Source: a candidate division SR1 bacterium Aalborg_AAW-1
Lineage (GTDB): Bacteria > Patescibacteriota > Gracilibacteria > Absconditabacterales > Absconditicoccaceae
Assembly: GCA_001007975.1 (NCBI GenBank)
Contig: CP011268.1
Span: 372,001 to 436,000 of the forward strand
Length of the DNA stretch: 64,000 bases
Reading direction: 5' to 3'
Shown in pieces: positions 15,247 to 53,492 of this stretch (positions are counted from its first letter, which is position 1; each line of letters begins with the position of its first letter). A program made the position numbers and the translations under genes. A model generated the notes under the pieces. That model saw only the letters and a program-made list of their open reading frames with translations, did no database searches and was not told the DNA's origin.

Positions 15247-18200
15247 CTATAAAAAGTTTATCCCATCAATCTCCTCCATCACGCGTGCAGTATTGGTCAG
15301 TGCAACGATGAGCTTCTGATAGTGCATGATATCTTCATACGACAATACTTTCCCTTTACGATCTTTGAGTCGTTTTTGGGCTGGTTGATATCATCAGATG
15401 TAGAACTCTCGAGCTACTTGTGGTACATTATCAATATATTGCGTGGCATTGATCCATACTTTCCCAGTTACCTGTCATTGCGAGGAACGAAGCAATCCAT
15501 CGTCACCAGAAGCATCAAACACTATCTTCTCCACCTTATTATCTCCTCAGACAGGATAGGTCGTGATAAGTGTGTCACTCTGCGGATGTTCCATGAGGTG
15601 TCGGAGTCTCAATTCATGACCTTTCTCCACCAGCTGTCGGAACATCTCCTTATCCTTCGTAAACGGTACTCTCGGGAAGTCAATCTTGAGAAACTCCTTG
15701 TAGGTTTCACGATAGGTCGGACTATGAAGTACTGCATAGATATAGTCAAAAATATCTTCCGGTCAGACAGTGCTTCTCCCATCTCCCTGTCATTGCGAGG
15801 AACGAAGCAATCCATTAGGTGATTTGTCATCCCACTCCATCCCTAACCTCTCACAGATCCCCTGCACGATACTCATATCCATATTAACTGATCTGGTCAT
15901 CTCACCATCGAGTCATTTATTGTAGAGATAGAGAGGACTAAAGGTTGTTTCTCAAGTCAAAGCATGTCTACATATCATATCTTTTGATACCATTATATGC
16001 GATGAAGTATTTTTTGATTGCCTCGTAAATATTAAACTCAAATTAGGTTGTATAATATGAGAAGAGAGGCTTCTTGGCCAGGCCAAGAAGCCTCTGGCGC
16101 AGCCAGAAAAAATTGTATACCTGTCATCAAATAGACGATATAATATCTTAACAATGTGTGGATCGTTAGATAATACATCATTCTTTGCTCTAGATATTTG
16201 TCGATCTCTTCATTCTTTATTGATTGAATATTTAGTCTTAATATTATCTTCTGATAAATGCTTGAAATCATTTAAAACCATTTGAGCATCATTAACTGTT
16301 TCTCTAATCGTCAAAACATCGTTTTGTGTCTCTATACCAATAGATATACTGGAGAATAATTGATCAAGTTTAACACCATTATTATATTTTTCCTCTAAAG
16401 CAAAATCTTTAGGAACAAAAAAGTAGTACGGCTCTTTGGGAATGAGTTTTTCCCATTTAATATCTTCTATAGTTTGTATCTCTAATCTTTCATACTTTAT
16501 ATCCCTCTTACCATAACTATCATAATGATAAACACTTGCTAATTTCTTGCTAGTTGAATTTTTCACGGCAAAAATAATTGATACTCCTTGCATAATATCA
16601 AATACATTTTCATCCTTTCATCATTCAGGAGTGACTTCTTTTTTTCTACCATCTCCATGTAAATTATAGATATATATTTTATCGAAACTCTCCATAAGAG
16701 TCTTTCTCATCTGACGATATGTTACTCCATCAACATAGCTATTATTGGTAATAAATCAGATAATTCCTTCTTTATTATTATCGACAAAATATTGAGCAAA
16801 TCTAATAAATTTAACATAATCATCATCAATGTTTATTTTTCTTTCATTGAGATTTTTTTTATAATCTGCAATAAGATTTTGTATCCATTCTCATTTATTA
16901 TTACTACTCACACTATACGGAGGATTTCCCATCACCACCATGATAGGTTGCTCTTTCTTCACTTTACTGGCTTCTTCTGATTCTCTCGCCAACTGTGCAG
17001 AAAACAATGATCCAATATGATCATGTGGCTCTTCCAGTGAGTTGGTGAGGAAGATATTCAGACGTTCATCACTACTATCGATCCCGAGATGTTCAAGTGT
17101 GAGTCCAAGCTTGAGATGAGCCATCGTGTAACTCGCCATCAGGATTTCAAATCCCCAGATACGAGGAAGCAGGTCTTGTCCTACATATCCTGACCAAGCT
17201 CCTGCCTGTCCTGCGAAGTAGGTATCATGGATATATTTGATCGTCTCATCGAGGAATGTTCCCGTTCCTGTTGCTGGATCCAGGACTTGGACACGATGGA
17301 CTTGTTTTTTGATTTTTTTACCTTGTTCCAAGAAGCTATGCTCGATCTTACTTGTATCAGCCAATCCTCTACTCAGTCCAAATTCTGACTTAAGCAGATG
17401 GTCAACTCCTCTCACGATAAACTTCACCACCGCCTCAGGAGTATAGTAGACTCAGCGTTTTTTACGCATCGCTGGATCGTATTCTCACAGAAACGTCTCA
17501 TAAAAATGGATGATCGGATCATTTCTCCCTGTTTCTTTGTTGTATTGCTTGAGCAATCCTGCTACATCCGTATGGAGAAAAATATTCACCAAATCATCGA
17601 TGATATGAGCCACACGATCATCAAATTCATCATCATTCGCCATCTGACGAAACAACCATCTCACGAATGGAGTGGATTTGGGGATGAGTTTCTCCGCTTC
17701 ATAACGAGAGAAGGTATCCAAATCAGTATCATGTAATCTTGCCGCAAATAATCCATACGCGATCGTCTGCGCGTACATATCTGCAAACTGATCTTCAGTC
17801 AGGTCAGAAATCAACATATCTTTAAAAGTAAGATACTGACTGTACAGTCACGCTTGGTCTCCGTCTTCTTGGAAGATATGCTGGATAGCGTATTTGATCA
17901 GTTGTGCTTTCTGAGCCATGGCATGAGCGAGCTTAGCAGGAGAACTGATCGTCTGTCCACTATACGAGAGAAAATCTACCAACAATCTCTCCAACTTCAC
18001 AGTCGCATCTCCAAACAGATCTGAGGTGTTCCAGGTGATCGTCTTTTTGTCACAACTTCATAGTGAGACACTTTCGACCAATTTCCCTCCACGATAGAAC
18101 TTAAACGTCAGATTGTTCGTATAGACGAAGTTATCAAAAGCTGACAAATAACGACCGAGCTGATCACTATTTTTCTTCTCATCCAGATCTACATAGAGAT

Positions 18201-18429
18201 CTTTGGCTTCTATCCATCCGATATTGATGGTATTGTTCTTGGTGTCCTTGATCGTAAAATCTGGCATCCCTACTCCAGTGATACGCTGTGATTCATTGAG
18301 GGCAAGTATCTTAGGATTCAGTGATTCCAATAAGGTCTTCAATGCACTACGAAAACTATGTTCTGTACTCTGACCAGTATTAAATTCTGACTGAATGGAT
18401 GATATGTATGAAATGATAAGTGATGACAT
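15247..18429 (-). CDS. Single-chain restriction-modification enzyme (type IIG/ISP-like, Eco57I-type methylase)
   Basis: 1060 aa in one frame through TGA-Gly codons. N-terminal PD-(D/E)xK nuclease: MPDFTIK at about residue 55 and IEAKD at about 73-77. A helical region leads to an N6-adenine methylase with motif I VLDPATGTGTFLDE (about 382-395) and catalytic motif IV NPPY (about 502-505). The C-terminal third should hold the target-recognition part. One protein would methylate and cut its own site. Two copies of a 30-bp repeat and a long palindrome lie in frame in the C-terminal third (see repeats). No separate specificity or restriction gene is adjacent. Ample TGA-Gly use argues against very recent import from a standard-code bacterium. 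Active nuclease and methylase residues look intact. Confidence 0.9.
15471..15500. repeat. 30-bp dispersed repeat, copy 1, in frame inside the R-M gene
   Basis: Identical to 15786-15815. It begins CCTGTCATTGCGAGGAACGA. Read on the coding minus strand it encodes GLLRSSQGQ, where the second G is TGA. Very similar TGTCATTGCGAGGAACGAAG sequences are known as dispersed repeats in unrelated bacteria. Confidence 0.85.
15786..15815. repeat. 30-bp dispersed repeat, copy 2, in frame inside the R-M gene
   Basis: Exact second copy of the repeat at 15471-15500, 315 bp away (105 codons), in the same orientation and frame. It encodes the same GLLRSSQGQ peptide in the putative target-recognition region. Confidence 0.85.
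16066..16094. repeat. Perfect 29-bp palindrome in the R-M gene
   Basis: Two 14-bp arms (GAGGCTTCTTGGCC and its complement) around one A. A second small stem CTGGC-GCA-GCCAG follows at 16094-16106. It is GC-rich against an AT-rich background and is translated in frame (about residues 779-788, RGFLAWPRSL). It resembles a palindromic element inserted in coding sequence. Confidence 0.8.
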
Positions 18430-33685: not shown

Positions 33686-33844
33686 AGTATAAAGTAACAA
33701 TATAAACGTATTCTTATCTTAAAGATCACATATGAAAAAATCAATATTAGTTTATTTTATAAAGTAAATTGTAATATTAAATTTTATTAATATATAATTT
33801 TCATAAAAAAACACCTCATATAGTTCCCTATGAGATGTTTTTTA

Positions 33845-33917
33845 TGGGTCCAGAGGGATTCGAACCCTCGACCAGCGGCTTAAAAGGCCGTTGCTCTACC
33901 GACTGAGCTATAGACCC
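33845..33917 (-). tRNA. tRNA-Lys (anticodon TTT)
   Basis: Acceptor GGGTCTA pairs with TGGACCC, and the discriminator is A. D-arm GCTCAGTCGGTAGAGC, anticodon loop CTTTTAA, T-arm GAGGGTTCGAATCCCTC. CCA is not encoded. 73 nt. Confidence 0.95.
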
Positions 33918-35677: not shown

Positions 35678-36214
35678 TTATGCTGCTTTTTTTGTAGTAG
35701 TTTTTTTAGCAGGTGCTTTTTTTTCAGAAGTTTCTTTTATAACAGCTTTCTTAGGAGCAACTTTCTTTACAGTTTCAGTTTTTTTAGCAGGTGCTTTTTT
35801 TTCAGAAGTTTCTTTTACAACAGCTTTCTTAGGAGCAGCTTTCTTTACAGCAGAACCATCAGTAATAATAGGAGAAACTTTAGCAAGTACATCTCTTTTC
35901 TTAGAAATAGAAACATTCTGACCTTTTCTTTGCACAAAGACAAGATGAGTAGCAACAAGATCTTTCAAAGAAGACAATCCTTTATGATCTAGAGCTTGTG
36001 TTACTTGAACAAAAGTAATACCATAACTCTTAATCTTTGATTGAGCCTTATTAAGAGCATTAGCTATCCATTTAGTCATACCTTCTTTCTCTAGTCTTTT
36101 AGCAAGAGTGATCGTGTGATCAATAAGATTTTTATATTTATCACCAGACTTTACTCTTTTGATATTTTGATTATAAAAGAATCTTTTTCGTCCTGATTGA
36201 TTTGGCTTTGGCAT
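35678..36214 (-). CDS. Basic protein with histone-like Lys/Ala/Pro repeat tail
   Basis: 178 aa with no TGA codons. Residues 1-115 look folded (MPKPNQSGRKRFFYNQNIK, ATHLVFVQRKGQNVSISK). From about 120 there is a tandem 26-residue repeat, APKKAVVKETSEKKAPAKK and APKKAVIKETSEKKAPAKK, like histone H1 or AAKK-rich bacterial tails that bind nucleic acids. It sits just downstream of uS7, in the place where EF-G often follows. It could be a lineage-specific ribosomal or nucleoid protein; the family is not recognised. Confidence 0.65.
   Translation of the reverse strand: MPKPNQSGRKRFFYNQNIKRVKSGDKYKNLIDHTITLAKRLEKEGMTKWIANALNKAQSKIKSYGITFVQVTQALDHKGLSSLKDLVATHLVFVQRKGQNVSISKKRDVLAKVSPIITDGSAVKKAAPKKAVVKETSEKKAPAKKTETVKKVAPKKAVIKETSEKKAPAKKTTTKKAA
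35701..35850. repeat. 78-bp tandem repeat in the Lys/Ala-rich gene
   Basis: 72 bp at 35701-35772 recur at 35779-35850 with two mismatches, a period of 78 bp (26 codons). The copies encode the repeated Lys/Ala/Pro tail, so length can change by recombination without breaking the frame. Confidence 0.9.
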
Positions 36215-53412: not shown

Positions 53413-53485
53413 GGGCTGATAGCTCAGTCGGTAGAGCAGAAGACTCTTAATCTTTTGGTCGCGGGTTCGAATCCCGCTCAGCCCA
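53413..53485 (+). tRNA. tRNA-Lys (anticodon CTT)
   Basis: 73 nt. Acceptor GGGCTGA pairs with TCAGCCC, discriminator A. D-arm GCTCAGTCGGTAGAGC, anticodon loop CTCTTAA, T-arm GCGGGTTCGAATCCCGC. CCA is not encoded. This complements the TTT tRNA-Lys at 33845. Confidence 0.95.
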
Positions 53486-53492
53486 ATAAACT

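Follow-up and report, generated by a model that had tools for sequence, protein, structure and literature searches.

Short repeats that are dispersed in a genome and translated in frame within conserved proteins are known from Rickettsia, viz. RPE-1 and others (Ogata et al. 2000, as relayed in PMC10969869 and PMC2229807), and the element described here resembles them in both respects. However, the Rickettsia RPEs, as these later sources present them, are about 100-150 bp in length and their translation follows the standard code, unlike that of the element described here. A second group of described repeats, the CGTC-tagged REPs, includes Rickettsia RPE-4 and RPE-6, and is reported to be without a dedicated transposase (Di Nocera et al. 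2013, PMC3733652). The use of TGA as a Gly codon is documented in Absconditabacteria (PMC8080830). The present work concerns one stretch of 64,000 nucleotides (hereafter, the window) from the candidate division SR1 bacterium Aalborg_AAW-1, in which a restriction-modification (R-M) gene carries two in-frame copies of a short dispersed repeat (Table 1).

Table 1. The R-M gene and its two repeat copies, with positions given in the window
Feature	Position	Strand	Description
One-chain R-M gene, 1060 aa, code 25	15247..18429	-	Nuclease + N6-adenine methyltransferase + Type_ISP_C specificity domain
Repeat copy, site B	15471..15500	-	Residues 978-986 GLLRSSQGQ, TGA codon 985; variable loop, C-terminal domain
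Repeat copy, site A	15786..15815	-	Residues 873-881 GLLRSSQGQ, TGA codon 880; linker before conserved EDIFDYIYAVLHSP helix

The R-M gene and its genetic code

The R-M gene contains 17 TGA codons, and its reading frame is open over the full length only if TGA is a sense codon. The Pfam matches of its product are N6_Mtase, Eco57I and Type_ISP_C (PF18135, residues 691-1053), and PADLOC assigns it to REase_MTase_IIG (6.8e-277); as is characteristic of Type IIG enzymes, the nuclease, methyltransferase and specificity domain are all found in one chain. For the AlphaFold model of the protein (mean pLDDT 83.5), fold matches were obtained to LlaGI and LlaBIII, Type ISP enzymes in DNA-bound form (Z 34), as well as to the Type IIG enzyme DrdV (Z 33, with residues 1-1060 aligned, but at 18 A rmsd overall), and the protein is similar to these enzymes in its fold and in the order of the methyltransferase and specificity domain. 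In contrast to the Type ISP enzymes, in which a helicase-like ATPase lies between the nuclease and the methyltransferase, no helicase family was detected among its Pfam matches and the chain has only 1060 aa, while its C-terminal domain scores Type_ISP_C. Due to the lack of a detected helicase domain, the most apt description is that of a one-chain, Type IIG-like enzyme whose specificity domain is Type-ISP-like.

Opposite four of the TGA codons a Gly is found in at least 20 of the 22 other homologues that were aligned, viz. codons 326 (22/22), 603 (20/22), 1012 (21/22) and 1013 (22/22), and the reading of TGA as Gly (code 25) in this gene is thereby supported. TGA codons number 34 in a homologue from the same family, and also in the homologue labelled Candidatus Absconditabacterales (about 60% identity).

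The gene also contains a perfect 15-bp inverted repeat with a 1-nt spacer (16065-16095), directly after which a second short hairpin, TCTGGCGCAGCCAGA, is found. This 31-nt perfect hairpin was considered as a further insertion and was rejected, as it aligns with the conserved GFxAxPR segment of the family and is single-copy in the genome. Elsewhere in the window, a 72-nt inverted repeat (33840-33911 versus 53419-53490; 78% complementary, 19.5 kb apart) and an imperfect 78-bp tandem repeat (35684-35850) are present.

Two identical copies of a 30-bp repeat

The repeat CCTGTCATTGCGAGGAACGAAGCAATCCAT is a 30-mer whose two copies start 315 bp, i.e. 105 codons, apart. Both are in frame in the gene, and in the peptide that each encodes the second Gly is specified by TGA. 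The first-pass annotation had described the pair in the same terms, and both copies proved to be exact. No match to the 30-mer was found in dinucleotide-preserving shuffles of the window and the number of exact 30-mer pairs expected in the gene is about 3e-11, due to which a chance origin of this pair is excluded.

The likeness between the two copies ends at the 30-mer, save for a partial match within the 9 bp that adjoin one of its ends. If the two copies had arisen by segmental duplication of the gene, then the similarity should extend beyond the repeat, and as it is confined to the 30-mer this source was rejected. It is also possible that a single insertion was followed by gene conversion or local copying within the gene, leading to the second copy. 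The identity of the pair over 30 bp, their common strand and frame and their spacing of only 315 bp are in accordance with this, as is the difference of one base between this pair and the copy in a PrmC-like gene described below. However, the end of the similarity at the 30-mer speaks against such copying, and copies in the TGA frame also occur singly in other genes, so that we regard this origin of the second copy as a tentative possibility.

Evidence for insertion at sites A and B

The homologues used for comparison (22 in number, other than this gene) are from this phylum as well as from Bacteroidota, Caldisericota, Armatimonadota and others. None of them (0/22) has the GLLRSSQGQ peptide at site A or site B, and the linkers at both places are variable in length. 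At site A the anchor-to-anchor length among the homologues is 7-102 residues (modal 12 or 24) and it is 35 here, while at site B it is 17-38 residues (modal 19) and 34 here. The excess, which is about 9-11 residues for site A and 9-15 for site B, is that expected for about 30 bp. In the structural model pLDDT falls below 50 only in the repeat loops (residues 872-883 and 976-981) and at residues 325-327. That the repeat was inserted into the gene, as had been proposed from the sequence in the first-pass annotation, is therefore upheld, and the interpretation of both segments as insertions of a dispersed repeat into length-variable linkers is well supported. No close strain was found in which either site of this gene is empty, and as the nearest homologue is only about 60% identical, the ends of the inserts are not exactly fixed.

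If the two segments were instead ancient coding sequence shared by this R-M family, resembling a dispersed repeat by chance, then they would be expected, as observed, to be in frame and free of stops under the code of the organism. However, other members of the family would also be expected to encode the same peptides, which the 22 aligned homologues do not, and this 22-24-mer core recurs, dispersed, in the genes and gaps of many genomes, so that this interpretation is extremely unlikely. Homologues with the same peptides had been named in the first-pass annotation as the finding that would go against insertion, and this check did not overturn it.

Also in favour of insertion, the site A linker of two homologues (L035 and L046) carries other, GC-rich repeat-like inserts (L035, TSSPLGGEMPKAEG; L046, PPHPNPLLEGEG; also TCTCCCCTCGGAGGGGAGATGCCGAAGGCAGAGGGG and CCTCACCCTAACCCTCTCCTGGAAGGAGAGGG).

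Distribution and class of the dispersed element

The genome contains 4 good copies of the 30-mer, and 6 copies if up to 3 mismatches are allowed. The distribution of the core is patchy: it was found in 10/379 genomes across the phylum, with up to 9 copies in each, and in 11/49 genomes of the family, at 57 listed places (58 on scanning the loci); the reversed control pattern gave 0 matches in both searches. Most of the core copies are extragenic, and inverted pairs are seen in two genomes (G239 and G291). The suggestion in the first-pass annotation that the core is a non-coding repeat elsewhere is borne out within the phylum, as in its distant genomes the core lies mostly outside genes.

The layout of the element is TGTC-ATTGC...GCAAT-CCA. 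In several characteristics it agrees with the CGTC-type REPs: the copies in the window begin with TGTC, which with CCTC is a common variant of the CGTC tag, and CGTC itself is common in the copies of one relative (G380); A and T come first in the stem and the unpaired tail is CCA-like, with some copies in relatives ending in CTA or CTT; and the copies are dispersed, in part as inverted pairs, and mostly extragenic. However, the CGTC REPs have a stem of 8-9 bp and a loop of 4-5 nt, whereas the stem here is 5 bp and the loop 10 nt, and because this stem is outside the range of the class, the element is REP-like and not a member of the CGTC REP class. The folding of the monomer is no more stable than that of shuffled sequence (z 0.58 and 0.11). 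The element also differs from the RAYT-mobilised GTAG REPs in lacking a GTAG tag, and the genome has no match to PF01797; a RAYT (Y1-type) transposase as its mover was rejected on this ground and because no clear link with copy number is seen in relatives. A known RNA element was likewise rejected, there being no Rfam match above the gathering score. Plasmids and viruses were searched as a possible origin of the repeat and gave none, and a literature search with the repeat sequence as a string gave no match.

Copies in other genes and their reading frames

A third in-gene copy in this genome (321934-321957) is in a PrmC-like gene, where it is read in the same TGA frame as GLLRTSQGQ. The net gain here is only about 5 residues, due to which this copy may have replaced sequence at its site. 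In G408, a genome of a sister genus, copies are present in Tex, MetG and ComEC, all in the TGA frame. The Tex and MetG proteins of G408 have inserts of 27-30 aa ending in GLLRSSQGQ which their relatives lack, including those of G399 from the same genus, whose Tex is 83-88% identical to that of G408. Another repeat-like segment (IPLRKGGSNEFAGGS.. and IPLTKGGSEAGGS..) stands ahead of the repeat in both of these inserts, so that the two are stacked. The copies within HsdR (G411), RimO and a protein without a Pfam match (both G380) and UvrC (G392) are read in other frames. The ORFs for GltX, MurA, MurI, TruB and S2 were left out of the in-gene count, as the copy near the start was judged to lie upstream of the real start; the names of the first four are from reading the sequence.

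Some further repeat-like peptides were seen in these proteins. The MetG of G408 (L095) has, besides its insert, a second one (GLLRFARND) in a variable region; the PrmC linker, which holds the copy in the genome of the window, has others (SEAGGS; SPFVSPFIKGG) in or beside it in G408 (L127) and G390 (L130), in the manner of a hot spot for insertion; and in the UvrC of G392 (L221) the element is read as VIAKNEAIS, with a further repeated peptide, SGRKK(N/T)SPEG, present twice.

These copies in other genes also bear on the possibility that the R-M gene is decaying as a pseudogene and that its insertions are neutral. A dead gene would be expected to carry such insertions. However, genes that are normally maintained, viz. 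Tex, MetG and PrmC, carry equivalent insertions, and the R-M gene is of full length without TAA or TAG, with its DPATGTGTF and NPPY motifs and its C-terminus conserved, which makes its decay improbable.

With the standard code, a stop is present in only one of the six frames of the 30-mer, namely the frame used here, and the other five are open. The statement in the first-pass annotation that the repeat is only tolerated because TGA is sense thus holds for this frame, but it does not hold for the element as a whole, because the other five frames are open and copies in them are found inside genes in the standard-code genomes of the phylum. Within the family the TGA frame is used by 6/10 in-gene copies (p 0.002 versus 1/6), and all 6 of the in-gene copies in the two genera of this genome and G408 are of this kind. 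When the R-M gene is excluded the fraction is 4/8 (p 0.03), and as the copies are also clustered in two genera, the preference for the TGA frame is suggestive only. The share of copies that are in genes, 10/58 in recoded versus about 2/27 in standard-code genomes, is not significantly different (p 0.32). That the change of TGA to Gly made the sixth frame translatable, with GLLRxSQGQ being preferentially kept in genes, and in this way altered where selfish repeats live, is conceivable, but we consider it doubtful.

Position of the inserts relative to DNA recognition

In LlaGI, bases are read by the TRD loops 1223-1230, 1324-1331 and 1365-1374 and by the helix 1286-1294, and the guide subdomain begins at 1440 (PMC4872093). 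By sequence alignment, allowing for the deleted N-terminus, residue 883 of the R-M protein would be near LlaGI 1389 (good to about 10 residues), which approximately places site A just after the base-reading Loop VI and site B in the 'guide' subdomain. It had been suggested in the first-pass annotation that the insertions may alter specificity, and if they had changed the DNA specificity of the enzyme and been retained for this reason, then a location within the C-terminal specificity domain (PF18135), where both segments lie, is to be expected. However, both are disordered-looking, low-confidence loops of variable length, which according to the approximate LlaGI alignment are outside the base-reading loops IV, V and VI; further, most of the indels that distinguish LlaGI from LlaBIII are reported to lie away from recognition regions (PMC4872093), and the element is also found in unrelated housekeeping genes. 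A change of specificity due to these segments is thus not supported, and we regard it as quite unlikely.

Proposed origin of the two copies

The two copies very probably represent separate insertions of a short, non-autonomous, CGTC/TGTC-tagged REP (RPE-like) element in tolerant loops (or one such insertion together with a copy of the core alone), where it is read through with TGA as Gly. The element would have landed in two loops of the enzyme that tolerate extra residues; an insertion of about 30 bp would keep the reading frame; and, because this lineage reads the TGA in the element's frame as Gly, translation would continue through it, and the loop at each site would be longer by about 9-11 residues. 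Copies out of frame or outside loops would afterwards be lost to purifying selection. We infer this order of events, and presumably the R-M protein and the other insert-bearing proteins are made and active, and it is probably selection, rather than a choice of target, that places the copies in loops.

Comparison with known systems

The element has in common with the CGTC REPs (PMC3733652) the TGTC/CGTC tag, the AT-first stem and the CCA-like tail; both are mostly intergenic, often in opposed pairs and without a dedicated transposase, and both are sometimes found in frame inside genes, including those for tRNA synthetases. It differs from them in its few copies per genome, in its host, a member of the candidate phyla radiation using code 25, and in that one of its in-gene frames needs TGA as sense. 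The R-M protein for its part differs from the one-chain Type IIG and Type ISP enzymes in having two extra loops derived from the repeat. The literature that was searched contains no account of REPs in the candidate phyla radiation, nor of palindromic elements inserted in frame in an organism that uses an alternative code.

A consequence of stop-codon reassignment is that mobile repeats which elsewhere would truncate proteins can be kept within the reading frames of conserved genes. Tex, MetG, ComEC, PrmC and the R-M enzyme are also natural tests of TGA = Gly readthrough, because a full-length protein needs each inserted TGA as sense. In-frame REP/RPE insertion is of a known kind, described in Rickettsia and others, and is here extended to the candidate phyla radiation; what is new is that the retained frame depends upon a reassigned stop codon and that it recurs in the conserved genes of two genera.
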